Below, piece by piece: positions 10,967 through 52,091 of a stretch of DNA of 64,000 nucleotides. The translations under genes and the position numbers were made by a program. Below the pieces are notes generated by a model that saw only the letters and a list, made by a program, of their open reading frames with translations, did no database searches and was not told the origin of the DNA. How positions within the stretch are numbered: position 1 is the stretch's first letter; each line of letters opens with the position of its first letter. This DNA comes from Renibacterium salmoninarum ATCC 33209 (lineage in GTDB: Bacteria; Actinomycetota; Actinomycetes; Actinomycetales; Micrococcaceae), in assembly GCF_000018885.1 (NCBI RefSeq), contig NC_010168.1, positions 1,364,001 through 1,428,000 of the forward strand, read 5' to 3'.

Positions 10967-11016
10967 TGAATCGCCCCGGTGTGTCCGGAGACTTTCTTGT
11001 TTGAGAGGATCAGGAC

Positions 11017-11382
11017 ATGGCAGGGAAAACTACGACACGGTATCCGCAGGAGTTGAAGGATCATACGGTGCGCATGGTGGCGGAGATGGAGGGTGCGTCT
11101 TCGGAGTGGGCGGCGATGCAAAAAGTTGCCCAGCTTTTGGGTGTGGGTGTGCCGGAAACGGTGCGTAAATGGGTCCGGCAAGCCGAGATCGATGTTGGTA
11201 CTAGAACTGGAACAACGAGCACGGAATCGGCCGAGCTGAAACGGTTACGGCGTGAGAACGCTGAGCTGAAACGGGCGAACGCGATCCTTCGGAGTGCTTC
11301 AGCTTTTGTCGCGGTCGAACTCGACCGCCACAACACTGATCGTGAAATACATCAAGGACCATGCCGGTCACCGCGAGAATAA
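11017..11382 (+). CDS. IS3-family transposase OrfA, IS copy 2
   Basis: HTH_Tnp_1-type N-terminus and leucine-zipper region as in copy 1. The usual slippery run is interrupted in this copy (gct ttt gtc instead of gct ttt ttc), which should lower -1 frameshifting. Near 11323-11330 one base appears to be missing relative to IS6110 (GACCGCCA for GACCGGCCA). This lengthens OrfA and puts the N-terminal segment of OrfB (residues like IVKYIKDHAGHRE and GLRWGVESICQVL) into a third frame. Confidence 0.83.
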   Translation: MAGKTTTRYPQELKDHTVRMVAEMEGASSEWAAMQKVAQLLGVGVPETVRKWVRQAEIDVGTRTGTTSTESAELKRLRRENAELKRANAILRSASAFVAVELDRHNTDREIHQGPCRSPRE

Positions 11383-11391
11383 TGGATTGCG

Positions 11392-12282
11392 GTGGGGTGT
11401 CGAGTCGATCTGCCAGGTGCTTACTGGGACGGGGTGAAGACCACCCCGTCCACGTACTACGAATGGGTGGATAAAACACGATCTCACCGAGAACAACGTG
11501 ATGAGGTGCTCAAGCCCGTGATCCAGAAGGTGTATGCCGCTAATTACGGGGTTTACGGCACCAGGAAAGTCTGGTTGGCGATGAACCGTGAAGGTGTGCC
11601 GGTGGCCAGGTGCACGGTAGAACGGCTCATGGGGTTACTTGGCATACAGGGTGCGGTCCGTGGCAAGGTCAAACGCACCACGATCAAAGACTCGAAGGCG
11701 GCCCGAGCGAAGGACTTGGTCCGCCGTGATTTCACACCAACGGCACCGGATCGGCTATGGGTAGATGATTTCACCTATGTTTCGACCTGGTCGGGGTGGG
11801 TCTATGTTGCCTTCGTGATCGATGCTTACTCTCGGAGGATCCTGGGCTGGTCAGCGAGTGCTTCTATGAACACCGTGCTAGTGCTCAACGCAGTTAATCA
11901 GGCAATCTGGAGTCGTGAACGGGCCGGGGCTGAGATTTCCGGGGTGATTCATCATCACGATGCCGGGGCTCAATACGCCTCCTTGGCCTTCACCGAACGC
12001 CTGGCCCAGGCCGGTATCCGCCCCTCGATCGGTTCTGTGGGTGATAGTTACGACAACGTCTTGGCGGAAACCATCAACGGGCTTTATAAGACCGAGCTGA
12101 TCAAACCCGGCAAGCCCTGGCGGACTCTAGAAGAAGTCGAAATCGGCACCGCTGAATGGGTCGATTGGTACAACCACCGAAGGCTCTACCAGTACTGCGG
12201 AGACATCCCACCAGTAGAGCTAGAAAACCACTACTACAATCACTACCAGAGCACGGCAGCCGCCGACAGGCTCATCGTCTGA
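11392..12282 (+). CDS. IS3-family transposase OrfB, IS copy 2
   Basis: DDE residues Asp126, Asp190 and Glu226 are all present. The conserved OrfB N-terminal segment is encoded at about 11333-11434 in another frame that stops at a TGA (11435-11437). One extra G in the run at 11431-11434 would join it to the KTTPSTYYEW part. The GTG at 11392 is therefore a nominal start. Whether this shorter protein transposes is unknown. Confidence 0.82.
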   Translation: MGCRVDLPGAYWDGVKTTPSTYYEWVDKTRSHREQRDEVLKPVIQKVYAANYGVYGTRKVWLAMNREGVPVARCTVERLMGLLGIQGAVRGKVKRTTIKDSKAARAKDLVRRDFTPTAPDRLWVDDFTYVSTWSGWVYVAFVIDAYSRRILGWSASASMNTVLVLNAVNQAIWSRERAGAEISGVIHHHDAGAQYASLAFTERLAQAGIRPSIGSVGDSYDNVLAETINGLYKTELIKPGKPWRTLEEVEIGTAEWVDWYNHRRLYQYCGDIPPVELENHYYNHYQSTAAADRLIV

Positions 12283-12332
12283 GAAACCCTCCGGACACAC
12301 CGGGGCGATTCATTCAGCGTAGAATCAAAATC

Positions 12333-13070
12333 ATGCCCAGGAACGATGGACGCCGGATCCTTGTGATCACGCCGGCGTGGAACGAAGGCGAGACTGTCGG
12401 TCACACGGTCACCGAAATATATTCCATAGACAAGGGATATGACGTCCTGGTGGTCGACGACGGCTCCAAAGACAACACCGCAATAGCTGCCGAAGCCGCC
12501 GGTGCCATGGTCTTGAAACTTCCGTTCAATATGGGAGTCGGCGGTGCCATGCGCGCTGGATTCAAATTTGCTCAGCGGTTTAACTACGACGCTGCCATCC
12601 AGGTTGATGCTGACGGCCAACATAATCCACGAGATATTGAAGCAGTGATCTCTGGACTAGATTCGGCTGATATTTCGATTGGTGCCCGTTTCGCGGACAA
12701 AGGCGACTACAAAGTGTCCGGCCCTAGGCAATGGGCCATGATTTTCCTAGCGAAAGTCATTTCGAGTATCGCCAGAACTCGACTGACAGATGTCACTTCA
12801 GGGTTCCGGGCAGCCAACCGGCGGGCGATAGCGCAATATATTGATCATTATCCGGCTGAATACCTAGGCGACACCATTGACTCCCTCGTGGTCGCGATCA
12901 AGTCCGGTTGCAGAGTCACTCAAGTTAGCGTGGCTATGCGTCCGCGTCAGGGCGGGACGCCGAGCCACAATCCTGTGAAATCGGCAATCTATCTTTTGCG
13001 CTCCATCTTTGCTTTGCTGTTTGCAGTGACGCGTAGTAAATCGAAGCCAGTAATTCAGGAAGGTGCTTAG
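12333..13070 (+). CDS. Family 2 glycosyltransferase (dolichyl/polyprenyl-phosphate sugar synthase-like)
   Basis: The GT-A fold start ILVITPAWNEGETVGHTVTEI is followed by VLVVDDGSKDNT and then AIQVDADGQHNP, which contains the DxD-type metal site. These are hallmarks of DPM1-like enzymes that move a sugar from a nucleotide donor onto a polyprenyl phosphate or glycan. A C-terminal hydrophobic segment (IYLLRSIFALLFAV) may anchor it to the membrane. The ATG at 12333 is 20 bp after the IS end, so the native promoter and probably the Shine-Dalgarno sequence were displaced. The next gene (DUF2304) starts 2 nt after its stop, and this GT2-DUF2304 pair recurs in actinobacteria. Confidence 0.87.
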   Translation: MPRNDGRRILVITPAWNEGETVGHTVTEIYSIDKGYDVLVVDDGSKDNTAIAAEAAGAMVLKLPFNMGVGGAMRAGFKFAQRFNYDAAIQVDADGQHNPRDIEAVISGLDSADISIGARFADKGDYKVSGPRQWAMIFLAKVISSIARTRLTDVTSGFRAANRRAIAQYIDHYPAEYLGDTIDSLVVAIKSGCRVTQVSVAMRPRQGGTPSHNPVKSAIYLLRSIFALLFAVTRSKSKPVIQEGA

Positions 13071-13071
13071 C

Positions 13072-13473
13072 ATGGGTAGCACGGTTACCGCGTTCATCTT
13101 CGCTCTCATCGTGGTCTGTATCATTCTCGACCTGGTGCGTAGAAAGGTCTTTAAGGAGAAATATGCCGCTCTCTGGCTTGTCATTGGCCTTGGTGCCATG
13201 GTGCTCGCAGGCTGGCCTGGCCTTTTGGGAGCCGTTAGTAGTTTCCTAGGCGTCCAAGTTGCTTCAAACCTCTTATTCGGCCTATGTATTTTGCTCCTTT
13301 TGGGCGTCTGTCTGCATCTTTCATGGGAAATGTCCGTTATCGAAGAAGAGACGCGAACTTTGGCAGAGGAAGTTGCCATTCTTCGACATCAAGTGGCCGC
13401 ACTGGTCAAGGACGCCGAAGTGAAGTCACAATCCAGTTCAGATGAAGACTCAACGGGTGGAGACCGCCACTAG
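13072..13473 (+). CDS. DUF2304 family small membrane protein
   Basis: 133 residues from the ATG at 13072: three hydrophobic helices (TVTAFIFALIVVCIILDLV, ALWLVIGLGAMVLAGWPGLL, LLFGLCILLLLGVCLHLSW) and a charged coiled-coil tail (IEEETRTLAEEVAILRHQVAAL). This is the DUF2304 architecture, found beside GT2 glycosyltransferases of cell-surface polysaccharide loci. It is probably a membrane partner of the preceding transferase. Confidence 0.85.
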   Translation: MGSTVTAFIFALIVVCIILDLVRRKVFKEKYAALWLVIGLGAMVLAGWPGLLGAVSSFLGVQVASNLLFGLCILLLLGVCLHLSWEMSVIEEETRTLAEEVAILRHQVAALVKDAEVKSQSSSDEDSTGGDRH

Positions 13474-37853: not shown

Positions 37854-38081
37854 ATGGAACTCGCCAGGTCCAAAAACATTGAATCGATCGAATCGGTAAG
37901 CGGAGTTGGGGGAACTCAAGATACCTTGCCGCGGCGAGCGTATGCCAGAGGACGCCGACCTTCGAGTCGGGTGGTTGCCCTTGAAATTCCACCCCAGGAA
38001 GAACAAGCCACCGTGCGCAGAATTGCCGCCTACGTTGCACACGGCACCTTAGAAGTACGTCCTGCTCAGCAGCTGTCTGTC
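37854..38081 (+). pseudogene. DUF6459/Rv3235-like protein, N-terminal half (split by IS copy 3)
   Basis: An ATG at 37854, with AAGGAGG about 8 nt upstream, opens a 76-codon frame (MELARSKNIES ... VRRIAAYVAHGTLEVRPAQQLSV) that ends on a codon boundary exactly where IS copy 3 begins; the IS supplies the stop. The C-terminal half is not beyond the IS but on the other strand, at 42345-42602, on the far side of secA. Reading from base 38081 into the complement of 42602 keeps the frame and gives a 161-residue protein, a usual length for this family. The function of the family is unknown. Confidence 0.82.
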
Positions 38082-38131
38082 TGAATCGCCCCGGTGTGTC
38101 CGGAGACTTTCTTGTTTGAGAGGATCAGGAC

Positions 38132-38497
38132 ATGGCAGGGAAAACTACGACACGGTATCCGCAGGAGTTGAAGGATCGTACGGTGCGCATGGTGGCGGAG
38201 ATGGAGGGTGCATCTTCGGAGTGGGCGGCGATGCAAAAAGTTGCCCAGCTTTTGGGTGTGGGTGTGCCGGAAACGGTGCGTAAATGGGTCCGGCAAGCCG
38301 AGATCGATGTTGGTACTAGAACTGGAACAACGAGCACGGAATCGGCCGAGCTGAAACGGTTACGGCGTGAGAACACTGAGCTGAAACGGGCGAACGCGAT
38401 CCTTCGGAGTGCTTCAGCTTTTTTCGCGGTCGAACTCGACCGCCACAACACTGATCGTGAAATACATCAAGGACCATGCCGGTCACCGCGAGAATAA
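38132..38497 (+). CDS. IS3-family transposase OrfA, IS copy 3
   Basis: 121 residues, HTH plus leucine-zipper-like region as in copy 1, with Thr in RRENTELKRAN and an intact T6 slippery run. The extended C-terminus results from the base missing relative to IS6110, as in all copies. Confidence 0.83.
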   Translation: MAGKTTTRYPQELKDRTVRMVAEMEGASSEWAAMQKVAQLLGVGVPETVRKWVRQAEIDVGTRTGTTSTESAELKRLRRENTELKRANAILRSASAFFAVELDRHNTDREIHQGPCRSPRE

Positions 38498-38506
38498 TGG
38501 ATTGCG

Positions 38507-39397
38507 GTGGGGTGTCGAGTCGATCTGCCAGGTGCTTACTGGGACGGGGTGAAGACCACCCCGTCCACGTACTACGAATGGGTGGATAAAACACGATCTC
38601 ACCGAGAACAACGTGATGAGGTGCTCAAGCCCGTGATCCAGAAGGTGTATGCCGCTAATTACGGGGTGCACGGCACCAGGAAAGTCTGGTTGGCGATGAA
38701 CCGTGAAGGTGTGCCGGTGGCCAGGTGCACGGTAGAACGGCTCATGGGGTTACTTGGCATACAGGGTGCGGTCCGTGGCAAGGTCAAACGCACCACGATC
38801 AAAGACTCGAAGGCAGCCCGAGCGAAGGACTTGGTCCGCCGTGATTTCACACCAACGGCACCGGATCGGCTATGGGTAGCTGATTTCACCTATGTTTCGA
38901 CCTGGTCCGGGTGGGTCTATGTTGCCTTCGTGATCGATGCTTACTCTCGGAGGATCCTGGGCTGGTCAGCGAGTGCTTCTATGAACACCGTGCTAGTGCT
39001 CAACGCAGTTAATCAGGCAATCTGGAGTCGTGAACGGGCCGGGGCTGAGATTTCCGGGGTGATTCATCATCACGATGCCGGGGCTCAATACGCCTCCTTG
39101 GCCTTCACCGAACGCCTGGCCCAGGCCGGTATCCGCCCCTCGATCGGTTCTGTGGGTGATAGTTACGACAACGCCTTGGCGGAAACCATCAACGGGCTTT
39201 ATAAGACCGAGCTGATCAAACCCGGCAAGCCCTGGCGGACTCTAGAAGAAGTCGAAATCGGCGCCGCTGAATGGGCCGATTGGTACAACCACCGAAGGCT
39301 CTACCAGTACTGCGGAGACATCCCACCAGTAGAGCTAGAAAACCACTACTACAATCACTACCAGAGCACGGCAGCCGCCGACAGGCTCATCGTCTGA
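38507..39397 (+). CDS. IS3-family transposase OrfB, IS copy 3
   Basis: DDE core present. This copy has WVADFTY, the form seen in IS6110, where the other three have WVDDFTY. It also differs by GAAEWADW. It could be the least altered copy, but it carries the same broken N-terminal junction. Confidence 0.83.
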   Translation: MGCRVDLPGAYWDGVKTTPSTYYEWVDKTRSHREQRDEVLKPVIQKVYAANYGVHGTRKVWLAMNREGVPVARCTVERLMGLLGIQGAVRGKVKRTTIKDSKAARAKDLVRRDFTPTAPDRLWVADFTYVSTWSGWVYVAFVIDAYSRRILGWSASASMNTVLVLNAVNQAIWSRERAGAEISGVIHHHDAGAQYASLAFTERLAQAGIRPSIGSVGDSYDNALAETINGLYKTELIKPGKPWRTLEEVEIGAAEWADWYNHRRLYQYCGDIPPVELENHYYNHYQSTAAADRLIV

Positions 39398-39533
39398 GAA
39401 ACCCTCCGGACACGCCGGGGCGATTCATCGGGGCGCTCGCCGAGACGTGACTCACGTAGACTGATCACGCTGGAAACCGTCCAGGGGACCACAAGCCCCG
39501 AAATTAGACTGCTGCAACCCAGGAGCATGGAAC

Positions 39534-42332
39534 GTGCCATCACTGTTTGAAAAGATTCTTCGCACCGGCGACCGTAAGACGCTCAAACGGTTGCACGTCT
39601 ATGCCGACGCGATCAATACGCTGGAAGATTCCTTCCAGACGTTTACTGACGCTGAGCTTCGTGAGGAAACGGATAAGCTCCGGGCCCGGCACGCAGACGG
39701 CGAGTCGCTGGATGATCTGTTGCCCGAAGCATTCGCTGCGGTCCGAGAGGGCTCGCGACGCACGCTCGGCATGCGACAGTTCGACGTGCAACTGATGGGT
39801 GGTGCGGCCCTTCACCTCGGCAACATTGCCGAAATGAAGACGGGTGAAGGCAAGACTTTGGTTGCCACCGCGCCGGCATATTTGAACGGCCTGTCCGGCA
39901 AAGGCGTACACATTGTGACGACGAACGACTATCTGGCGTCGTACCAGTCCGAGCTGATGGGGCGAGTGCATCGTTTCATGGGCTTGACCAGCGGATGCAT
40001 TCTTTCGGCTCAAGAGCCGTCTGAGCGACGCCTGCAGTACGCGGCCGATGTCACCTACGGCACCAATAACGAATTCGGTTTCGACTACCTCCGCGACAAT
40101 ATGGCGTGGAGCTCGGAAGAACTCGTCCAGCGTGGACACCACTTCGCCATCGTTGACGAAGTTGACTCGATTCTGATCGATGAGGCTCGTACTCCGTTGA
40201 TCATTTCCGGTCCTGCCAGTGGCGATGCGAACCGCTGGTACGGCGAATTCGCCAAAGTGGTTCTTCGCTTGGACGTCGACGACGACTACGAAGTCGATGA
40301 GAAGAAGCGCACGGTCGGCGTACTTGAGCCCGGGATCGAAAAGGTCGAAGACTACCTGGGCATAAGCAACCTTTACGAGTCCGCGAACACGCCGCTCATT
40401 GGCTTCTTGAACAATGCGATCAAGGCGAAAGAGCTCTTCAAGCGGGACAAAGATTATGTCATTCTCGACGGCGAAGTACTGATCGTCGATGAGCACACCG
40501 GCCGTATTTTGGCTGGTCGGCGGTACAACGAAGGCATGCACCAGGCCATCGAAGCCAAAGAAAGCGTTGAAATCAAGGCTGAAAACCAGACCTTGGCCAC
40601 GGTGACCTTGCAGAACTACTTCCGGCTTTACGAGAAACTCTCCGGCATGACCGGTACTGCCGAGACTGAAGCATCTGAATTCATGGGCACGTACGAATTG
40701 GGCGTGGTGGCTATCCCGACGAACAAGCCGATGGTGCGAATCGACCAGTCGGACTTGGTTTACAAAAATGAAGTCGTTAAGTTCGAAGCAGTAGTCAAAG
40801 ACATCGAAGAACGCCACAAAGAGGGCCAGCCGGTCTTGGTGGGTACCACCAGCGTAGAAAAGAGCGAGTACCTTTCTAAGCAGCTGTCCAAGCTAGGCAT
40901 CAAGCACGAAGTTCTCAACGCGAAAAACCACGCCCGTGAGGCCTCGATCGTTGCGCAAGCTGGCCGCAAGGGTGCTGTGACGGTTGCGACCAATATGGCT
41001 GGTCGCGGTACCGACATCATGCTCGGTGGTAACGCAGAGTTCAACGCAGTGACCGAATTGGCCAAACGCGGGCTGGACCCGGAAGAAACCCCTGAAGAGT
41101 ACGAGGCCGCGTGGGCTGAAGCCTACGAAAAAGCTCAAGAGGCGACCGAGGAAGAGCACGAAGAGGTTGTTGAGCTTGGTGGGCTCTACGTTCTGGGCAC
41201 TGAACGCCATGAGTCTCGACGCATCGACAATCAGCTCCGCGGCCGCTCTGGCCGTCAGGGTGACCCGGGAGAATCGCGCTTCTACCTTTCGTTGACTGAT
41301 GACCTGATGCGCCTTTTCAACTCGGGTGCAGCTGAGCGGCTCATGGGTCGTTCAGTGATGCCAGACGATCAGGCCTTGGAATCGAAGTTGGTTTCCAAAG
41401 CTATTGCCTCGGCGCAAGGACAGGTTGAGGGCCGCAACGCCGAACAGCGTAAGAACGTGCTCAAGTACGATGACGTATTGAACCGGCAGCGCGAGGCCAT
41501 CTATGGTGACCGACGTCGAATTCTTGAAGGTGACGATCTTCACGAGAAAGTGCAACACTTCCTCGAAGATACAGTCAACGAAAGTATTGACGCTACGACG
41601 GCGGAAGGCCACGCCGAAGGCTGGGACTACAAAGCATTGTGGAGCTCGCTTGGCACGCTTTACCCCATCGGTCTGACCGCGGATGACGTCGCTGAAGAAG
41701 TTGGCGGTTTGGCAAACGTCACTTCCGATGTGCTCAAGCGTGAGATCCTTTCTGATGCCAAGCTTGCCTACCAAGGCCGCGAAGAAAAGCTCGGTTCAGA
41801 GACCATTCGTGAGCTCGAACGCCGGGTAGTGCTGTCCGTTATTGGACGCAAATGGCAAGAGCACCTCTATGAAATGGATTACCTCAAAGAAGGTATTGGC
41901 CTGCGAGCGATGGCTCAGCGCGATCCGCTGGTTGAGTACCAACGTGAAGGCTTCGTGATGTTCCAAGCGATGATGGGCGCCATTCGCGAAGAAAGCGTTG
42001 GTTTCTTGTTCAACCTGGAAGTACAGGTTGAAGAGGCGCCGGCAGCTTCGGCCGGAGTGCAAGCAAATCAACCTTCAGCGCTCCTGGATCGAGTCAACGG
42101 TGAAGACGCCGGTGCTGAGGCTCATGCCTCCGCAAAGCCGGTGCTCAACGCTCCTGGCCTGGCTGAACCGGAACGCCCTAGCCAGCTTCAGTTCACAGCC
42201 CCAGATGCTTCGGGTGAAGCGGAAACTCGTATTGAGCGCCGCTCGACTGCTGGTTCCGCTGGTGATTCAAATTTGCCGCCGTCGGCCCGTAAGACCAATA
42301 AGCCGGCACCAAAGCGGAAGAAGCGTCGCTAA
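39534..42332 (+). CDS. secA: Preprotein translocase ATPase SecA
   Basis: 932 residues. Walker A is MKTGEGKT at 101-108, DEVD at 208-211 ([17 protein letters not shown]), the helicase motif is [19 protein letters not shown], and [15 protein letters not shown] follows. It drives Sec-dependent export with SecYEG. The acidic/Lys-rich tail ends in KRKKRR and has no SEC-C zinc motif, common in actinobacterial SecA1. GTG start at 39534, with AGGAG 8 nt upstream. Only about 105 bp of native upstream DNA remains before IS copy 3. secA is on the plus strand here, whereas hpf, comF, lpqB and mtrBA are on the minus strand. In related actinobacteria all run the same way, so the segment appears inverted. 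Confidence 0.97.
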
Positions 42333-42344
42333 TCTTTTAGCGAA

Positions 42345-42602
42345 TCAACCTATCAACAGGGCGGTAACTTTCCAGTTACCGCCCTGTTTTTCTATCCGGA
42401 TCGCTACTGCGCGGTAACGGGCCCGTTCTGACACCACGATGCTTAGCTCGTATATTCCGGCAGCCACCCTGCTGCCGTGAACTGACCTGACCTGGATACT
42501 TTGATGCAATCGCTCGGGGTTGTGCTGAACCGCACGCCGAGCCCGATTAGTTAGTTCTGCTCGCATCAGCAAGCTGGCAAAAAGTTGCTGATCCAATATG
42601 CA
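42345..42602 (-). pseudogene. DUF6459/Rv3235-like protein, C-terminal half (split, inverted relative to N-terminal half)
   Basis: Starting at the IS copy 4 boundary, the minus strand reads CILDQQLFASLLMRAELTNR and on through VHGSRVAAGIYELSIVV and RYRAVAIRIEKQGGNWKVTALLIG to a stop at 42345. The end (G-W-x-x-T-A-L-x-x-G) is characteristic of Rv3235-like proteins. It has no start of its own. The gene converges on secA, and its last codons coincide with the secA terminator hairpin. Confidence 0.8.
42356..42392 (+). terminator. Rho-independent terminator of secA
   Basis: ACAGGGCGGTAACT and AGTTACCGCCCTGT form a perfect 14-bp stem with a TTCC loop, followed by TTTTTC. It lies 24 bp after the secA stop. 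On the other strand the same bases encode GGNWKVTALL of the DUF6459 fragment. Confidence 0.93.
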
Positions 42603-42632
42603 TGAATCGCTCCGGTGTGTCCGGAGGGTTTC

Positions 42633-43523
42633 TCAGACGATGAGCCTGTCGGCGGCTGCCGTGCTCTGGTAGTGATTGTAGTAGTGGTTTTCTAGCTCTA
42701 CTGGTGGGATGTCTCCGCAGTACTGGTAGAGCCTTCGGTGGTTGTACCAATCGGCCCATTCAGCGGTGCCGATTTCGACTTCTTCTAGAGTCCGCCAGGG
42801 CTTGCCGGGTTTGATCAGCTCGGTCTTATAAAGCCCGTTGATGGTTTCCGCCAAGGCGTTGTCGTAACTATCACCCACAGAACCGATCGAGGGGCGGATA
42901 CCGGCCTGGGCCAGGCGTTCGGTGAAGGCCAAGGAGGCGTATTGAGCCCCGGCATCGTGATGATGAATCACCCCGGAAATCTCAGCCCCGGCCCGTTCAC
43001 GACTCCAGATTGCCTGATTAACTGCGTTGAGCACTAGCACGGTGTTCATAGAAGCACTCGCTGACCAGCCCAGGATCCTCCGAGAGTAAGCATCGATCAC
43101 GAAGGCAACATAGACCCACCCGGACCAGGTCGAAACATAGGTGAAATCATCTACCCATAGCCGATCCGGTGCCGTTGGTGTGAAATCACGGCGGACCAAG
43201 TCCTTCGCTCGGGCTGCCTTCGAGTCTTTGATCGTGGTGCGTTTGACCTTGCCACGGACCGCACCCTGTATGCCAAGTAACCCCATGAGCCGTTCTACCG
43301 TGCACCTGGCCACCGGCACACCTTCACGGTTCATCGCCAACCAGACTTTCCTGGTGCCGTGCACCCCGTAATTAGCGGCATACACCTTCTGGATCACGGG
43401 CTTGAGCACCTCATCACGTTGTTCTCGGTGAGATCGTGTTTTATCCACCCATTCGTAGTACGTGGACGGGGTGGTCTTCACCCCGTCCCAGTAAGCACCT
43501 GGCAGATCGACTCGACACCCCAC
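42633..43523 (-). CDS. IS3-family transposase OrfB, IS copy 4
   Basis: DDE triad intact (WVDDFTY, HHHDAGAQY, DNALAET). It shares GVHG and DNALAE with copy 3. As in all copies, the nominal GTG start lies downstream of the out-of-frame N-terminal segment. Confidence 0.83.
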   Translation of the reverse strand: MGCRVDLPGAYWDGVKTTPSTYYEWVDKTRSHREQRDEVLKPVIQKVYAANYGVHGTRKVWLAMNREGVPVARCTVERLMGLLGIQGAVRGKVKRTTIKDSKAARAKDLVRRDFTPTAPDRLWVDDFTYVSTWSGWVYVAFVIDAYSRRILGWSASASMNTVLVLNAVNQAIWSRERAGAEISGVIHHHDAGAQYASLAFTERLAQAGIRPSIGSVGDSYDNALAETINGLYKTELIKPGKPWRTLEEVEIGTAEWADWYNHRRLYQYCGDIPPVELENHYYNHYQSTAAADRLIV

Positions 43524-43532
43524 CGCAATCCA

Positions 43533-43898
43533 TTATTCTCGCGGTGACCGGCATGGTCCTTGATGTATTTCACGATCAGTGTTGTGGCGGTCGAGTTCGA
43601 CCGCGAAAAAAGCTGAAGCACTCCGAAGGATCGCGTTCGCCCGTTTCAGCTCAGTGTTCTCACGCCGTAACCGTTTCAGCTCGGCCGATTCCGTGCTCGT
43701 TGTTCCAGTTCTAGTACCAACATCGATCTCGGCTTGCCGGACCCATTTACGCACCGTTTCCGGCACACCCACACCCAAAAGCTGGGCAACTTTTTGCATC
43801 GCCGCCCACTCCGAAGATGCACCCTCCATCTCCGCCACCATGCGCACCGTACGATCCTTCAACTCCTGCGGATACCGTGTCGTAGTTTTCCCTGCCAT
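43533..43898 (-). CDS. IS3-family transposase OrfA, IS copy 4
   Basis: Same protein sequence as copy 3 OrfA, including RRENTELKRAN and the intact T6 slippery run. HTH followed by a leucine-zipper-like region. Confidence 0.83.
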   Translation of the reverse strand: MAGKTTTRYPQELKDRTVRMVAEMEGASSEWAAMQKVAQLLGVGVPETVRKWVRQAEIDVGTRTGTTSTESAELKRLRRENTELKRANAILRSASAFFAVELDRHNTDREIHQGPCRSPRE

Positions 43899-43948
43899 GT
43901 CCTGATCCTCTCAAACAAGAAAGTCTCCGGACACACCGGGGCGATTCA

Positions 43949-44420
43949 CCCAGGGCCGGGCGAACAGGTATCAAAATCAATGGCAGCAACTAGCTGTTGC
44001 TCTCGAAACACCAAATTGTAGGGGGGCAAAGTCGTTGTGACAAATCACCTCGGCTGGCTCATGTGACCGCAGCTGCTAACGGACGTTTTCGACGGCGAAG
44101 TCCAGGCTTGCGTCATGAACCATTCGAAGAAACACCGCGGCATCATCAAGAATTTTCTCCGTCCACAGCCAATCTGGCATCGGATAGTGCGGGACTATTC
44201 CGTTGATGAACTCCAGTTCTTCGCGTCCGTCAGCGGTGAGTCCGAAGGGTTGCGGCACACCAGGAAGCTTCTTGGCCCGCAAATGGCTGAGAAAAGCTTG
44301 AATTGTGGGCGTCCACGGGCCACTTGGCCGGAGTACCTTGTCGCCACGTCGGGTAGCTCCGCCCATATTTCCGCCAGCCAACGAGATGTCTCCCGGTTGG
44401 TTTAGGGGCAGCTGATTCAT
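43949..44420 (-). pseudogene. Aminoglycoside phosphotransferase (APH)-family protein, multiply disrupted and cut by IS copy 4
   Basis: The ATG at 44420 (MNQLPLNQPGDISLAGGN) opens a kinase-like fold: RRGDKVLRPSGPWTPTIQAF, then YPMPDWLWTEKIL and LRMVHDASLDF. A TAG at 44076-44078 follows ENVR; the frame then continues QLRSHEPAEVICHNDFAP, which holds the catalytic loop HNDFAPYN once one C is removed from a six-C run (about 44030-44036). After that come LVAAIDFDTCSPGPG and the IS boundary. Three lesions (nonsense, +1 shift, truncation) show it is dead. The remaining C-terminus is not found beyond the IS. Confidence 0.82.
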
Positions 44421-44463: not shown

Positions 44464-45721
44464 TTAGTTTTTGATTGCTGCCGCAAGCTTGTCTGCAAGA
44501 TTACCTACCGGCTCCACGACGACATCAGTCAGTTCCAGCCATTGAGCCATCAGCCTCAGTTCTGCGGCAAGTTCCGTCGCGGTATCCGCAGGTGCATTCG
44601 GTTCGGCGAATGCGGTTCGTACCAACAACCGACTAGCAGCCCGATCAGCTTTCAGATCAACTCGGGCCACAATTTCTTCACGCAAAAAAAGGGCAACACA
44701 TAGTAGCCGTGCGTCCGCTTTTCTACAGGTGTGTATTATGCCGATCCGGTAATGCATATCAAAAAGATCAAGCAGCCTTCGACGCTCGAAGACCAACGAG
44801 TCAAAGGGGCTCAACAAGGCTCGCGCCCGCGAGATTCGGGGCTTGGCAGCCTCCTCCTGGTGCAGGAAAAGGTCAGCGTCCCACCCACGGACCGATACTC
44901 GCTCCAACACACCAGTATCCAGTAATTCGGCGACGGCGGCAGCGGAGTCCCGGATTGGCAGCCTAAAATAGTTCAGCGAAGCAACGCACAGTACCGATTC
45001 CGTGTGCTCTAGCCGCCGCCTCGGTGAGCCGCACGATGCCCTCCGCGCGGTCAGCGGCATCGTTTGCTACGCTGCGAAAAATGCGGCCGGTTGGCGTGTA
45101 ACGTCGTTCAAATTGCTCGTTCCGACCTGCCACGCTGATATCTCCGGCAATGAACAGTCGCTCAAGACACTCTTTAACCGGGTTCCAGCCCCAGTTGGAG
45201 CGGTCAGTTGTCTTTTCGTAACCTACTCGTTCGCTTACTTGGCGCGCGGTCATCGCTCGGCCAGCTTCGAGAACTCTCAATATCTTCAGGGAAAGATCGC
45301 GCGTCTGCTCTGGTCGCTGCGGATTGTTTCCGAACCAGCTTCTACGTTGCCAAGAGCGCATATCAGCAAAGTGCTCCGGCTTGATGAAACTAGCCTCATG
45401 TGCCCAGTATTCGACCATTTTGCGCGGGTGAGCTGAGCTGAATCTGTTCAAGATTTCACGATCGTAATTGCCTAGTCTGGCAAAAAACGGTAAATAGTGA
45501 CTGCGAGAAAGCACGTTGACAGAGTCAATCTTGACGAGCTGCAACTGATCAAAAACTCTAGCAATGCCGCGAGCTCCCGCAGCGACTTCCGGTTTACCTT
45601 TGATCAGACCCTGTGCCGCAATAGCGATTCGACGAGCTTGCGCCAAAGTCATCGGAGCGGACGCTGTGGGCCTTAGGTTCTGACCGGTGGCCAATTGCTG
45701 CGATTTGTTAGCGGAGGTCAT
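44464..45721 (-). pseudogene. Winged-helix DNA glycosylase-like protein (HTH_42/YcaQ family), frameshifted
   Basis: The N-terminal part from an ATG at 45721 (MTSANKSQQL ... LAQARRIAIAAQGL, VKIDSVNVLSRSHYLPFFARLG, VEYWAHEASFI, ERLFIAGDISVAGR) matches the HTH_42 family, which includes crosslink-repair glycosylases such as YcaQ. At about 44970 the frame passes into the next one (YFRLPIRDSAAAVAELLD ... SPFDSLVFERRRLLDLF), consistent with a one-base insertion. A further +1/-1 pair around 44695-44750 scrambles what should read YTPVEKRTHGYYVLPF before VARVDLKADR returns. At least three indels mean no functional product. Confidence 0.82.
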
Positions 45722-45731
45722 GGCAAAAAGC

Positions 45732-45774
45732 GTAGGGGCTATCCAGGACAGCAAACGTCCTAGATAGCCCCTAC
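45732..45774 (-). terminator. Hairpin terminator downstream of hpf
   Basis: GTAGGGGCTATC-AGGAC pairs with GTCCT-GATAGCCCCTAC over about 17-18 bp with one mismatch and a 7-nt loop. It lies 22 bp after the hpf stop and just before the start of the winged-helix pseudogene, so the two were separate transcription units. Confidence 0.82.
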
Positions 45775-45795: not shown

Positions 45796-46524
45796 TTATG
45801 AAACGCTTGCCGCCCGGTCCTCGGAGCGATATGCCAAGATCTGCTCGGCAGGAGCAGAACCGACATCAGCACAGTCTGCGTCAAGAGTTATCACGCCATA
45901 GGTCCAACCGCGGCGACGATAAACCACCGAGGGCGCATTAGTCACCGAATCAATGAACAAGTAAAAGTCGTGGCCTACTAACTCCATGTTGTCCACGGCG
46001 TCATCAACACCCATAGCGGCAGCAGGAAAAACTTTGCGCCGGATCAAGACCGGTGAGTCACCAGCTGGAATGTCATTTTCAATTTCATAAGGTGACGCTG
46101 TTTGTTTTGCTGCTTCAGCTTCGACAGAAACTTCAGTGTTCAGCAAGGTAATCGGACCAGTGCCTACCGGTTCCAGGGACGCCGTCGCTTCACTCACTGC
46201 TTTTGGCGTATGCCGACCGTGGTGAAGCTTTTTCTTATCTTTAGCGCGGCGTAATCGTTCCAAAAGCTTGTTATAGGCAACATCGAAGGCTGCAAACTTA
46301 TCCCCAGCATGCGCCTCAGCTCTAATCACCGGCCCACGGCCCTGGACAGTTAGCTCCACCGTCAACTTGGTGTCAGCCAGCCGAGCGTTCGGCTGCTTGG
46401 ACACTTTAGCGTCGACTCGCTGGACTTTTTCGGTGAGGTGCTCCAGTTTGGAAATCTTTTCTGTCGCGTATTCCCGGAACCGGTCCGAGACAGTGAGATT
46501 GCGGCCGCTGATCATGAATTCCAT
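45796..46524 (-). CDS. hpf: Long-form ribosome hibernation promoting factor
   Basis: 242 residues. The N-terminal S30AE domain (MEFMISGRNLTVSDRFREYA ... EHLTEKVQRVDAKVSKQPNAR ... DKFAAFDVAYNKLLERLRRAKDKKK) binds the 30S subunit. The C-terminal domain (SPVLIRRKVFPAAAMGVDDAVDNMELVGHDFYLFID) dimerises 70S ribosomes to 100S. The ATG at 46524 is preceded by GGAGGG with 5-nt spacing, which decides against the longer frame to 46599. It keeps its actinobacterial place between comF and secA, apart from the local rearrangement. Confidence 0.95.
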   Translation of the reverse strand: MEFMISGRNLTVSDRFREYATEKISKLEHLTEKVQRVDAKVSKQPNARLADTKLTVELTVQGRGPVIRAEAHAGDKFAAFDVAYNKLLERLRRAKDKKKLHHGRHTPKAVSEATASLEPVGTGPITLLNTEVSVEAEAAKQTASPYEIENDIPAGDSPVLIRRKVFPAAAMGVDDAVDNMELVGHDFYLFIDSVTNAPSVVYRRRGWTYGVITLDADCADVGSAPAEQILAYRSEDRAASVS

Positions 46525-46665
46525 AGTGCCCTCCACATGACGAAAGTGACACGACGGTCGGCTTTCGGTTCTGCTGCCAGACCGCCGACGGGTCCTCATC
46601 CTCGAAGAGGTACCCGTTTACTCACGTTAGTTCAAAGCCACCCGTTATTCATCCTCTGTTCGCAA

Positions 46666-47511
46666 TTATTTTCTTGGAAGTCGCTGTACATTTCGAGATA
46701 CTGCTGCAATAACCACAGCACCAATGACGTTTCCGCCCGCTGCTGAAACCGCCCGAGCCGCTTCAGCAAGGGTTGCGCCTGTGGTCAGCACATCGTCGAC
46801 CAACAGGCAATTGAGGCCCTGAACATGATTTAGCTTTCGCTTTGGCACCATCAAGCTGCCGCGAAGGTTGGCCCTTCGAGCAACGGCAGAGAGCGATTTC
46901 TGGGCGGCTTGCGGAGCGAAAAAGGTTTTCCAATCGAACTTTCTTCGCTTCTGCAAAAGGGCCGAAACCGGAAAACATTGACTGTTCCGGCGGCGTAGGC
47001 TGCCAAGTATTTGACCCACTGGGTCGTAGCCACGCCTTCGGTAGCCGGAAATTGTCGTAGGCACTGGCACTAAATGCGGCAGCGCCCGAAAGGAAGGGCC
47101 AGGCACCGCTAGCTGCTCCGAAAATATCGAGGCCTCAATCGCTCGACCAAGAGCAGCCGCCAGATCATTAGCCAATGGAACTGCACCCTGATTCTTAAAC
47201 GCCAGAATCGCATGAGCCAGTTGGTTTCGATAAGAACCTGCTGCGATTACTGGAAACAGTACTTCGCCGTCCAAATCTGTTAATGCCGGCGCTTGAGCTG
47301 CCGCTTGGAATGGCGAACTAGTCAGCGAGCGCAACGCAGCTGAACAGTCTGTACAAAGCAAAGCATTCGGACGTCCGCATGAGACGCACTCAATCGGTAA
47401 CACCAGGGCCAGAAACTCCTGCCAGGCACTGCCGATGAAGCTATACCAGCGCAGCAAACGTGCTTGTGGCTGGTGCCGATGCCGCACTCTTGAGATTTGC
47501 TGAAGCCCCAT
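46666..47511 (-). CDS. comF: ComF-family phosphoribosyltransferase-like protein
   Basis: 281 residues. A zinc-finger-like CVSCGRPNALLCTDC sits near the N-terminus (about residues 43-57); the PRTase motif LLVDDVLTTGATLAEAA is in the C-terminal part, preceded by VPVPTTISGYRRRGYDP. ComF proteins assist DNA uptake in competent bacteria, but in actinobacteria they sit in the mtrAB-lpqB-hpf cluster without proven competence. ATG at 47511. The frame is intact. Confidence 0.9.
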   Translation of the reverse strand: MGLQQISRVRHRHQPQARLLRWYSFIGSAWQEFLALVLPIECVSCGRPNALLCTDCSAALRSLTSSPFQAAAQAPALTDLDGEVLFPVIAAGSYRNQLAHAILAFKNQGAVPLANDLAAALGRAIEASIFSEQLAVPGPSFRALPHLVPVPTTISGYRRRGYDPVGQILGSLRRRNSQCFPVSALLQKRRKFDWKTFFAPQAAQKSLSAVARRANLRGSLMVPKRKLNHVQGLNCLLVDDVLTTGATLAEAARAVSAAGGNVIGAVVIAAVSRNVQRLPRK

Positions 47512-47645
47512 AAATCAAGGATCCGTTACCGGTGCCCCGGTAACCCCCGGAACACAAACAACCTCGATAAATGTGCGGAAAGCCAAGCGAACAGGGCATG
47601 TGTCGGACAAGTCAGGCTGTCAGAAAAGCGATCTACTGGAATTGA

Positions 47646-49400
47646 TTAACCAGCAAATGCCAAATCGTTCAGATCTTTCAATTGGGATTGTTCTTGCCAC
47701 CCGTTGACCGCATAGCTGAAGACGTCCCCCGAGTTATTTTGTGCATAGACCTCGGATAAATCGTTACCTACGGTGGAACCCTTCAGCTCTTTCAAAGCAG
47801 TGAACTTATTTGAGGCCTTATTGTCCGGAGCATCGACTGAAATGACACCAGCTACCACTTCACCAGGGCCGGGCGCCGTCACCAATATTTTCGACTCCCC
47901 GGCCCAATTGCCGGTGGTGAAAGCCAAACCTTCTGCAAAGAGATTCAAGGGTGCCGTGAGTTCTCGTGGGGTACTCACAGAGTTGTTATCCTGTTTGAGA
48001 ATCCCGCTCAGCTGAACTTGGCTTTGGCCGTTCAGCGAAGAAATCACCATAACTCGCGCACCATCACGCGAGACTCGCAGCGCAGTGACCGTGCGACCCT
48101 TTAGCCAGTCTGCGGTCAAGGTAACGGTAGTTGCCTGGTTCCCGTCCGTGATACCGGGATAGCTGGCAAATATTCGGCCGCTCTGATTTCCTTCCGCCGT
48201 CCAGACCCAGTTTGACGGCGAGAACGACGGCGGCGTCAACGCTGTGCCGCTCACTGCCAACTTTTCCGTCTGGTTAGGAGAAACGGTATACATTTCCGTG
48301 GAAGTTCCGTTCAAAAACGCAACGGGACCACCCGGTGCGTAGGATTCAGCCGGAGATTTCGGTTGATACCGGGCGACTGAAGGAATCCCGGCAATTTGCT
48401 GCTGCTGGCCGTTGTCAAAATAGACCAGTTCGCTTTTTGAAATTCCGGCTAACCTGTTTGGCACCGGCGCGCCGTGAACAAGGCTTAGCGAGCTCGAGGG
48501 TGCATCATTGGCGTCCAGCGTGAGCTGATCGGCTCGAAGGATGATGTTAGTTACCGTATTGAGCTGGCGAGTAAGTGTTTCTTGCAGCTGGGCCCGCATC
48601 TGTTGGCGCACTTGTGCGCTCGCAGCCTGCAGCACAGTTGCCGTTAGATCGACGGTCGCGGTCGACGAGACAATGGGCACCGTGTCCCTTAAAAGTCGGA
48701 TTCCGTCGGGGAAAGCGCTTGCCACTGCCCCCTTGAGATAGCTCGCTGGACCGCTAATCAAGGCTTTCACCATGACCGTTGGCACAGTGCTTGGACTCGC
48801 CGCGAACCAACGAACATCCGGAACCATGTAGGAAAAGCTGGGGTCGTAAAAATACAACGATCTGGCTTTGAAAATATTCTGGAAGTTCTGTTGCGCAATC
48901 ATAATTCCGTCCGGAATCGAACTGATCCGCCATTCGCCATCAACCCGGGTCATCGTGAGTTGAACTGTGTTGGGCACGCCAGAGTGGGCGGGCGTCCTAA
49001 TACCATCAGCGTCGATACTCGACTGAGTTTTCAACTCAATTTTGAAATCGTTGTCAGAATCACCTTTGACGATATTCGGCTGATCTTGGAACACCAGGGT
49101 GCGCTGATCACTTTTCCACGTCGTTGCAGCGGGTCCGGCAAGGAATTTTCTGGCAGTTTGAAAGTTCTCGGCAAACCCAGTTCCGGCGTTAATGAACCCG
49201 TTGATAATTGCCATCTGATCCGCACCGGGGGCAGGCGGATTAGGCGGTGCGTAATTGAAATTAAGTTGAGTATCGCTGCGATCAGTTGGTTGAATCTTCG
49301 AAACACCGCCACCGGTTGGAATGCTCGCGCATGCGGACAACGTCAACACAGCTACGAGCAGAGCGCTTAGCACCACCAGCAGCTTCTTTTGCGGGCTCAT
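47646..49400 (-). CDS. lpqB: Lipoprotein LpqB (MtrAB accessory, beta-propeller)
   Basis: 584 residues. The signal peptide MSPQKKLLVVLSALLVAVLTLSAC ends in the lipobox LSAC with Cys24 as the lipidated residue. A GerMN-like domain follows, and then a beta-propeller-type C-terminal half. LpqB interacts with MtrB and tunes MtrA phosphorylation in mycobacteria and Streptomyces. The ATG at 49400 shares its first base with the last base of the mtrB stop (TGATG), so the genes are translationally coupled. Confidence 0.95.
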   Translation of the reverse strand: MSPQKKLLVVLSALLVAVLTLSACASIPTGGGVSKIQPTDRSDTQLNFNYAPPNPPAPGADQMAIINGFINAGTGFAENFQTARKFLAGPAATTWKSDQRTLVFQDQPNIVKGDSDNDFKIELKTQSSIDADGIRTPAHSGVPNTVQLTMTRVDGEWRISSIPDGIMIAQQNFQNIFKARSLYFYDPSFSYMVPDVRWFAASPSTVPTVMVKALISGPASYLKGAVASAFPDGIRLLRDTVPIVSSTATVDLTATVLQAASAQVRQQMRAQLQETLTRQLNTVTNIILRADQLTLDANDAPSSSLSLVHGAPVPNRLAGISKSELVYFDNGQQQQIAGIPSVARYQPKSPAESYAPGGPVAFLNGTSTEMYTVSPNQTEKLAVSGTALTPPSFSPSNWVWTAEGNQSGRIFASYPGITDGNQATTVTLTADWLKGRTVTALRVSRDGARVMVISSLNGQSQVQLSGILKQDNNSVSTPRELTAPLNLFAEGLAFTTGNWAGESKILVTAPGPGEVVAGVISVDAPDNKASNKFTALKELKGSTVGNDLSEVYAQNNSGDVFSYAVNGWQEQSQLKDLNDLAFAG

Positions 49401-51082
49401 CAGCGCTTCTCCTCTGCTGGTGTTTTTCCGTCAACATGCATGACGCCACCCAGCGAGGAAAGTGGAATACTCTCGTTTCCTGGTGGCAGTGCTAGCGGCG
49501 AATGATCTACGCCGGTGCCGCGTTTGCGTGGCAAGGTGAGGCGGAAACATGCACCTTCGCCAGGACGTCCCCAGACTTCTAAAAGACCATCATGCAACTT
49601 CGTGTCCTCAATCGAAATGGCCAAGCCCAAACCACTGCCGCCAGTTGTTCGCGCACGCGCCGGATCCGCTCGCCAAAACCGATCAAAGACTCGAGATATC
49701 TCTGATTCAGTCAGACCAATGCCATGATCGCGTACCGCAATCGCTACCACGTCGGCATCTGCAGCAATGAAAATCTGCACTGGACGCTTTTCTCCGTGCT
49801 CCAGGGCATTGACCAGCAAATTTCGCAGAATTCGCTCAATTCGACGTGGATCCATCTCAACAATGCAGCTGTCATCTGGTACTGCCGAAACTAAGGTAAG
49901 CGGTGAGCCAATCTTGTCTGCCAGCATTTTCGCTTCGTCAAGCACTTTACTAATGACAGTGAAAATTTCTTGCGGTTCGGCGTCCAAAACGGCCGCGCCC
50001 GCGTCAAACCTTGATATTTCCAGTAGATCCGCAAGCAGCGCCTGAAATCTTTCCACCTGGTGATACATCAACTCGGCCGAACGCCGGTTGACCGGATCAA
50101 AACTTTCCCGAGCGTCATAAAGCACTTCGGCAGCCATCCGCACCGTGGTCAGTGGGGTACGCAATTCATGTGAAACGTCGGAAACGAAATTGCGTTGCAT
50201 ATGAGACAAGGTGGCTAGCTGAGTGATCTGTTCTTGGAGTGCGTTCGCCATCTTGTTAAACGACTCTGCCAACCGAGCCACCTCGTCTTCGCCTTTGGCG
50301 TTCATTCGCTCCTGTAGTTCACCCGCTGCTAGTTTCTCCGCGACTAAGGCGGCTTGGCTAACCGGTTGCACAACGTTCCTGGTTACAAACCAAGCGATTC
50401 CACCGATCAAAAGCAGCAATGCCGCCCCCGAAATCCACAACACAGACTGAATGTAGTTCAGCGTCTCCTGGGACGAATTGAGATCGTAAACCACGTAAAG
50501 CTCGTAAAAGTTGTTGGCAAGTTCTACCCGAGATCCGAAGACAATAGCCGGGTGGCTTCCCGAGCTGCCGATCGGCAAAGCCATAGATTTCGAGAACAGT
50601 TCGTCGCTCTGCTTCACCATTGAACGCAGATCGTCAGGAATAACCGATGCGGTGATCTCGCCTTTATTGATGCTCGAAACCGCGAGCGGGTTCTTTTGAC
50701 CTTGTACCGGAATCATCAGGTACTTGCGGATGTTGCCGGTGTCTCCGACCACAAGCCCACTCAAAGTATCGTTCGCTAGCTGAACCAAGGAGGCTTGATC
50801 TGATATTTGCGCTGCGGCAAAGCTGGTGCGTACCGTGCCTATCCCTCGGCTGGTGTCGGCGGAAGTCTGTTGAAGGCGCTCCTGAAACAGCCCGTTGGCA
50901 ATTTGGTTGGAAAGAAAGATTCCCACACCGCCGATCGCGACAAAAGCGACCAGCATCGTCACTAATACCGTTCGGAACTGCAGTGAGCGGCGAAGCCTCC
51001 CGGTGAACCATTCAAATTCACGTTTGACCAACATGAGCGTCGATCGAGCAGCATGTCGAAGCGCGTTCAAGGGCTTAGCCAT
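49400..51082 (-). CDS. mtrB: Sensor histidine kinase MtrB
   Basis: 560 residues from the ATG at 51082 (MAKPLNALRHAARS). It has two membrane helices (VLVTMLVAFVAIGGVGIFLS near residue 40 and ILWISG-ALLLLIGGIAWFV near 205), an extracytoplasmic sensor, HAMP (VAEKLAAGELQERMNAKGEDEV), the H-box FVSDVSHELRTPLTTVRMAAE, and HATPase motifs NLLVNALEHGEKR, DHGIGL and GGSGLGLAI. A TTG at 51124 would add 14 residues but lacks a ribosome binding site. It phosphorylates MtrA to coordinate cell-wall hydrolases and division. Confidence 0.95.
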   Translation of the reverse strand: MAKPLNALRHAARSTLMLVKREFEWFTGRLRRSLQFRTVLVTMLVAFVAIGGVGIFLSNQIANGLFQERLQQTSADTSRGIGTVRTSFAAAQISDQASLVQLANDTLSGLVVGDTGNIRKYLMIPVQGQKNPLAVSSINKGEITASVIPDDLRSMVKQSDELFSKSMALPIGSSGSHPAIVFGSRVELANNFYELYVVYDLNSSQETLNYIQSVLWISGAALLLLIGGIAWFVTRNVVQPVSQAALVAEKLAAGELQERMNAKGEDEVARLAESFNKMANALQEQITQLATLSHMQRNFVSDVSHELRTPLTTVRMAAEVLYDARESFDPVNRRSAELMYHQVERFQALLADLLEISRFDAGAAVLDAEPQEIFTVISKVLDEAKMLADKIGSPLTLVSAVPDDSCIVEMDPRRIERILRNLLVNALEHGEKRPVQIFIAADADVVAIAVRDHGIGLTESEISRVFDRFWRADPARARTTGGSGLGLAISIEDTKLHDGLLEVWGRPGEGACFRLTLPRKRGTGVDHSPLALPPGNESIPLSSLGGVMHVDGKTPAEEKR

Positions 51083-51140
51083 GCTGCCGAACCGCCTCGC
51101 AGCCAGCGTGGATCTGCTTGGCAAAGTGATGCGTCAAAAG

Positions 51141-51815
51141 CTACTGACCAGCCTTGTATCCCACTCCACGCACCGTGAGTACGACCTCGGGAGCTTCAGG
51201 GTCGATCTCGATTTTGGACCGCAAGCGTTGCACATGCACATTGACCAAACGCGTATCCGCAGCATGCCGGTATCCCCACACCTGCTCCAGGAGTAGCTCT
51301 CTAGTGAAGACCTGCCAAGGCTTGCGCGCCAGAGCGACCAAAAGATCAAATTCCAAGGGAGTGAGTGAAATCCGAGTTTCGCCCCTAGCCACCACGTGCC
51401 CGGCGACGTCGATCGTTATATCAGCGATCTTGAGCGTCTCTGGCGTTTTCTGATCGCCAGGTCGCAATCGAGCGCGAACTCGGGCAACCAGCTCCGCAGG
51501 CTTGAATGGCTTGGGTACGTAGTCGTCCCCGCCCGATTCAAGGCCCCGGACGACGTCGGACGTATCGGCTTTTGCCGTCAACATCACCACCGGAACGTCT
51601 GACTCGGCGCGAATGAGCCGACAGACTTCGATTCCGTCTATTCCTGGCAGCATGAGGTCCAAAAGAACTAGGTCTGGCTTTCCAGCGCGGAAAACCTCCA
51701 ATGCCTGCGACCCATCCGCACAAAAGAATGGTTCAAACCCATCATTGCGGAGCACAATACCGATCATCTCGGCCAGAGCCTCGTCGTCGTCTACCACCAA
51801 AATGCGTGCCTTCAT
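51141..51815 (-). CDS. mtrA: Response regulator MtrA (OmpR/PhoB family)
   Basis: 225 residues from the ATG at 51815 (MKARILVVDDDEALAEMIG). The receiver has the acidic pair DD at 9-10 and phospho-acceptor Asp53 (LVLLDLMLPG). The C-terminal winged helix has SLTPLEFDLLVALARKPWQVFTRELLLEQVWGY and RLVNVHVQRLRSKIE. The sequence is nearly that of mycobacterial MtrA. It is the first gene of mtrA-mtrB-lpqB on the minus strand. The 220 bp before it, shared with a divergent membrane operon, hold no recognised gene. Confidence 0.96.
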   Translation of the reverse strand: MKARILVVDDDEALAEMIGIVLRNDGFEPFFCADGSQALEVFRAGKPDLVLLDLMLPGIDGIEVCRLIRAESDVPVVMLTAKADTSDVVRGLESGGDDYVPKPFKPAELVARVRARLRPGDQKTPETLKIADITIDVAGHVVARGETRISLTPLEFDLLVALARKPWQVFTRELLLEQVWGYRHAADTRLVNVHVQRLRSKIEIDPEAPEVVLTVRGVGYKAGQ

Positions 51816-52091
51816 ACCTCTATATTCGCCTATCCAGTGGACTTGTGTCGCACCGACCTGCAGATTCAACCGAAAATTCGCTGAGATACGCCAATATATT
51901 GACCGAAATGTTCTGCGGTTTCTGCTGCCAGCTGACCTGCAATTCTGGGTAGGCTAGGCAGCAGAGCTTTCCAGTCGAGCAAATCACAGTGTGGTTGAGT
52001 TAGTTTCCAGCCAAGCTGCGAAATGACTGACATGGCAAAACTGTCAAAATGCCCATCGTGGCGAGTCCTAACCGGAGGGGTCCAACACGCA

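Follow-up and report, generated by a model that had tools for sequence, protein, structure and literature searches.

A secA segment probably inverted between two opposed insertion sequence copies in Renibacterium salmoninarum

In Renibacterium salmoninarum ATCC 33209, whose chromosome is a single contig of 3,155,250 bases, a block carrying the essential gene secA is best read as having been inverted between two insertion sequence (IS) copies, and we put the probability of this reading at about 85%. The window, that is, the whole stretch of 64,000 nucleotides analysed here, contains the block (39428-42602, ~3.2 kb) enclosed by two facing IS copies, numbered 3 and 4. Both breakpoints lie exactly at these copies, a gene broken there has an intact homologue elsewhere, and the relatives keep a different gene order. 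The initial annotation of this DNA had proposed that the secA segment was inverted between two IS copies, and the proposal was borne out by opposed copies at both breakpoints and by an order conserved in 24 of 24 relatives. We regard the inversion as real and well supported, and its mechanism as ordinary and well known. The features of the locus, in window coordinates, are as follows.

37854..38081, plus strand: N-terminal half of a DUF6459/Rv3235-like gene, 76 codons, cut at IS copy 3
38082-39427, plus strand: IS copy 3, an IS3-type element of 1346 bp with ends TGAATCGC...GCGATTCA
38132-38497, plus strand: orfA of IS copy 3, HTH_Tnp_1 domain
38507-39397, plus strand: orfB of IS copy 3, rve domain
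39428..39533, plus strand: secA upstream region inside the flipped block, holding TCACGTAGACT
39534..42332, plus strand: secA, intact, 932 aa (hpf, comF, lpqB and mtrBA are on the minus strand)
42345..42602, minus strand: C-terminal half of the DUF6459 gene (PF20060), 85 codons plus stop, own start absent, abutting IS copy 4
42355..42388, plus strand: terminator-like hairpin of 15 pairs with a T tail behind secA, located in the 3' end of the DUF6459 C-terminal half, which is convergent with secA
42603-43948, minus strand: IS copy 4, opposed to copy 3, 1346 bp, 4 differences from copy 3
within 43949..44420, minus strand: phosphotransferase-like gene fragment on the outer flank of copy 4, truncated and frameshifted, open part 44076-44420
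44464..45754, minus strand: AlkZ-like gene, probably frameshifted, read in two overlapping frames; adjoins secA in most relatives
45796..51869, minus strand: hpf, comF, lpqB, mtrB and mtrA cluster; secA is on the same strand in relatives

The two breakpoints separate two halves of one DUF6459/Rv3235-like gene, since both halves match successive parts of a single intact protein. The N-terminal half ends on a codon boundary at position 38081, at the left edge of copy 3, as had been described, and its stop codon TGA is supplied by the IS end, while the frame of the C-terminal half is open to the first base beside copy 4. The left edge of copy 4 had been placed at 42602; this is the last flanking base and the IS starts at 42603, but the C-terminal half does abut copy 4 as described. 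The 161 residues given for the joined protein were also recovered, as 76 plus 85 codons in one frame, by codon count with the halves kept separate. The C-terminal half matched DUF6459 (PF20060) with an E-value of 9.7e-17 and 61.7 bits (cut-off 27) over profile positions 32-105 of 105, whereas the N-terminal half had no Pfam match, so that alignment to the family held for the C-terminal half only.

An intact homologue of 164 aa (P0002) was among 24 matches to a profile built from two intact relatives and the two halves as separate rows, the best 7996 candidates by common words having been scored. The N-terminal half is 87% identical to residues 1-79 of P0002 (6 of 75 residues differ, plus a 4-residue gap) and the C-terminal half is 98% identical to residues 81-164 (2 of 84 residues differ), which disposes of the concern that the halves might derive from different families. 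Residues 1-80 of P0002 match the N-terminal half in the R. salmoninarum genome at 91%. The greater divergence of the N-terminal half is weak evidence of decay only, because the N-terminal region is variable across the family. At the junction the window is one residue longer than P0002, which is the size of a 3-bp duplication, and the two triplets differ. The gene was broken by the insertion of the IS and not by the flip; as the IS sits within the gene, turning the block back would not repair it.

We also considered P0002 as a protein from a strain of R. salmoninarum and rejected this, its divergence being far above the within-species rate of one SNP per 876 bases (PMC3960531). A close relative outside the known diversity of the species seems to exist in public reads, where the longest contig with P0002 reaches 11,996 bases. 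An LpqB cluster representative that differs at 6 of 584 residues may or may not come from the same organism.

The gene order of relatives indicates which orientation is ancestral. In all 20 family relatives whose 20-kb surroundings were compared (the best-scoring 20 of 60 searched), hpf lies on the secA strand and DUF6459 on the opposite strand, DUF6459 being found in 19 of the 20 when the C-terminal half alone was the query. The same order occurs in six of six same-genus relatives (Psychromicrobium), two of which are common to both sets, so that secA shares the strand of hpf and converges with DUF6459 in all 24 distinct family relatives. Nine further family loci, whose flanks are short, all have DUF6459 opposite secA, and the one in which hpf was found has it on the secA strand; DUF6459 is thus convergent with secA at 33 of 33 family loci (20 + 9 + 4). 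Among 80 named loci taken from across bacteria, hpf was found in 43, always on the secA strand and within 4 kb in 34, and DUF6459 was found in 17 and lies opposite secA in 16. The sole exception is a DUF6459 match on the secA strand in Microbacterium oxydans. Flipping the block back therefore puts secA on the minus strand with hpf and its neighbours and convergent with DUF6459, as had been predicted and as in the 24 relatives. Relatives with the present orientation of secA relative to hpf were sought and numbered none of the 24 in the family and none of the 43 named loci having hpf. Compared with the same-genus genome G026, the window from 20 to 64 kb is collinear save for an inverted 39.5-42.6 kb, among the matches listed (>60 bits). 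Judged from this collinearity, it is the block that was turned, not its surroundings.

The main rival explanation is that the 3.2-kb segment was placed backwards in the assembly, the chromosome really having the ancestral order plus two IS insertions. Copies 3 and 4 are identical over ~800 bases at one end, so the segment would be difficult to orient with single Sanger or short reads, and a genome with ~70 IS copies is hard to assemble. However, read pairs from a library with inserts of a few kilobases would cross a 1.35-kb IS and fix the orientation, and the assembly is one contig. We consider such an artefact improbable.

The breakpoints themselves are marked by the inverted IS pair. An inverted-repeat search of the window returned opposed arms at 38077-39428 and 42602-43953. 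The element carries terminal inverted repeats, and it was called IS3-type because of orfA with HTH_Tnp_1 and orfB with rve, a label that rests on these transposase domains and does not imply a formal family assignment. Its terminal repeat has 70 forward and 70 reverse matches genome-wide; the spacings of the pairs vary, so the count may take in related IS forms. R. salmoninarum has been reported to carry 69 copies of IS994, an IS3-family element (PMC5320689). The resemblance in copy number (69 versus 70 + 70 terminal repeats) and the two ORFs with HTH and rve suggest that the element is IS994, a name drawn from organism and copy number rather than from sequence identity.

Copies 3 and 4 are not identical; they differ at four alignment columns (801, 1184, 1336 and 1341). 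Copy 4 is nevertheless the nearest to copy 3 of the 43 other copies compared (4 differences, against an all-pairs median of 8), and the two have in common a rare variant present in 3 of 44 copies. Copy 4 is nearer to the copy at L011 (3 differences) and equally near to that at L016 and to copy 3 (4 each). The closeness and the rare variant fit what would be expected if the two copies had exchanged sequence. Elsewhere in the genome, four copies (L012, L022, L031 and L045) have extra terminal-repeat pieces directly beside them, as if IS ends, or sites adjoining them, had been targets of IS insertion, and four pairs of copies lying far apart (L010/L025, L018/L023, L012/L022 and L029/L035) have 10-21 identical bases at the same IS end.

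From this anatomy we infer both the recombination and an order of steps. An IS3-type copy would have inserted into the DUF6459 gene and broken it, and a second copy would have inserted immediately before the secA promoter region, some sequence being lost or gained there. The two copies would then have been opposed and ~3.2 kb apart, and RecA-type homologous recombination between them would have inverted the secA upstream region, secA, the hairpin and the DUF6459 C-terminal half. The anatomy supports homologous recombination between IS copies, which the initial annotation had already invoked, but neither pairing of the flanks shows a target-site duplication.

Elements of the IS3 family make target-site duplications of 3-4 bp. 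Read in the frame of the IS, the flanks of copy 3 are GTC/TCG and those of copy 4 are GGG/TGC, which contain no target-site duplication, and the swapped pairings (GTC/TGC and GGG/TCG) contain none either. A target-site duplication as proof of the inversion is thus ruled out, as neither pairing of copies 3 and 4 fits. To place this result, the flanks of 40 sampled copies were compared (4 in the window and 36 of the loci L009-L048), in 43 rows with two rows each for L012, L022 and L045; 4 of 44 copies were left out (L031, L040 and L043, imperfect end; L048, N in flank). Only three of the 40 copies (L027, L036 and L045) match between their own flanks at 3 bp, and none matches at 4 bp. The missing duplication is general among the sampled copies (37 of 40) and does not single out copies 3 and 4, and the exchanged-duplication test is weak in this genome for the same reason. 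Either the element makes no duplication, or DNA at IS ends is often deleted. That duplications had been shuffled among copies by recombination was also considered and is unsupported, as 14 triplets are common to the 5' and 3' flank sets, where chance would give 16.5. Just right of the window, at 68552-69840 in window coordinates, a 1289-bp form of the IS (L103) lies in a permease-like gene that has a collinear counterpart in G026. As estimated from match coordinates, some 50 bp of this counterpart are apparently missing at the site, which suggests that deletions at IS ends may be one cause of the missing duplications.

Intramolecular transposition would leave the same anatomy, the second IS copy having arisen together with the inversion and without recombination between earlier copies, and the closeness of copies 3 and 4 and their common rare variant would fit this route as well. 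However, the copies differ at four positions and the right breakpoint carries an additional gene fragment, both of which suggest that the copies have separate histories, and IS3-family elements move by copy-out/paste-in circles, which give no inversions directly. We consider this route very unlikely, even more so than a misassembly, and return to inversion by recombination between existing copies.

The right breakpoint is composite. The fragment on the outer flank of copy 4 has no Pfam match, and its phosphotransferase-like label is a reading of the sequence. None of the 24 relatives showed it in the surroundings of secA. Homologues occur away from secA in three of the four relatives whose whole genomes were searched (50% in G053, 47% in G024 and a weaker 31% in G026), with none in the fourth, G028, and in the R. 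salmoninarum genome the fragment matches only itself. A gene fragment at the right breakpoint that is absent there in relatives means that at least one further event happened. The split gene had been offered as proof of the inversion; the gene is indeed split, but proof is too strong a word for a breakpoint that carries the additional fragment in 43949-44420.

Despite the turn, the secA unit in the block appears complete, with a predicted promoter and terminator. The motif TCACGTAGACT lies at 39452-39462, 24 bases from the IS, and occurs upstream of secA in the window and in 17 of 20 relatives, being absent in the other 3. The hairpin behind secA folds at -26.3 kcal/mol (z -8.3), and none of 200 shuffles folds as well. 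A sigma-70 consensus scan of 39400-42620 gave no promoter upstream of secA, and the terminator-like sites in the same interval, the hairpin among them, number 3 against a shuffle mean of 3.6, which is not above chance; the promoter and terminator are therefore putative. As the two IS copies face inward, secA is preceded by an IS 3' end before and after a flip alike. The seeming completeness of the unit and the inward-facing copies would explain why the inversion was tolerated.

The direction of secA relative to replication has probably changed. The gene dnaA is at base 180. All 8 stretches sampled between 0.2 and 1.29 Mb have positive GC skew, and all 14 sampled from 1.33 Mb on, among them the thirds of the window, have negative skew; a stretch at 50 kb is an exception in being negative too. 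This skew suggests that the minus strand is probably the leading strand in the window, in which case secA was co-directional with replication before the flip and is head-on now. Head-on secA is a likely cost of the inversion.

The orientation of secA is possibly reversible. Near-identical opposed repeats at short distance are good substrates for recombination, and here the opposed repeats of 1346 bp, with 4 differences, are 3.2 kb apart and a flip leaves the immediate IS neighbour of secA unchanged. A mixed population in which both orientations occur, at least rarely, would extend the inversion reading rather than exclude it, and we hold this tentatively, as possible but not favoured. PMC3960531 speaks against it, reporting no evidence of genomic rearrangement among 68 isolates in a MAUVE screen of paired HiSeq short reads, but with weak power across IS copies; PMC6202448 describes isolates compared by mapping reads whose inserts averaged 300 bp. 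Such short-read isolate studies have little power here, because the reads can hardly cross a 1.35-kb repeat. The main text of PMC13274415 contains none of the terms insertion sequence, inversion and rearrangement, and among the titles listed for open papers we found none on a secA inversion in R. salmoninarum. It is doubtful that the block is maintained as a reversible switch, each orientation being common in populations, so that cells would differ in the direction of secA relative to the replication fork while the upstream context stays the same.

The locus resembles known IS-mediated inversions in that each breakpoint coincides with one of two opposed copies of the same element and the content is collinear with relatives once turned. 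It differs from them in its very small block, which holds a single essential gene and half of a broken one, and in that no target-site duplication is left to prove the exchange. The C-terminal half matches the DUF6459/Rv3235 family, whose gene converges with secA at all 33 family loci, and both halves match an intact member, P0002, but here the gene is split in two and is a pseudogene. The case shows on a small scale how a host-restricted bacterium rich in IS copies can rearrange even a conserved neighbourhood of an essential gene and leave that gene unharmed, the break having fallen outside a seemingly self-contained secA unit. Its interest lies in an essential gene turned head-on within a seemingly unchanged expression unit; should the two orientations coexist, one could measure, with all else equal, what it costs to have an essential gene head-on. 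In old closed genomes, the orientation of segments between opposed IS copies merits a check by long reads. Elsewhere in the window, IS copy 2 (10967-12312) is followed on its right by a stretch (12354-13470) that is inverted relative to its match in G026, possibly a second IS-linked rearrangement.
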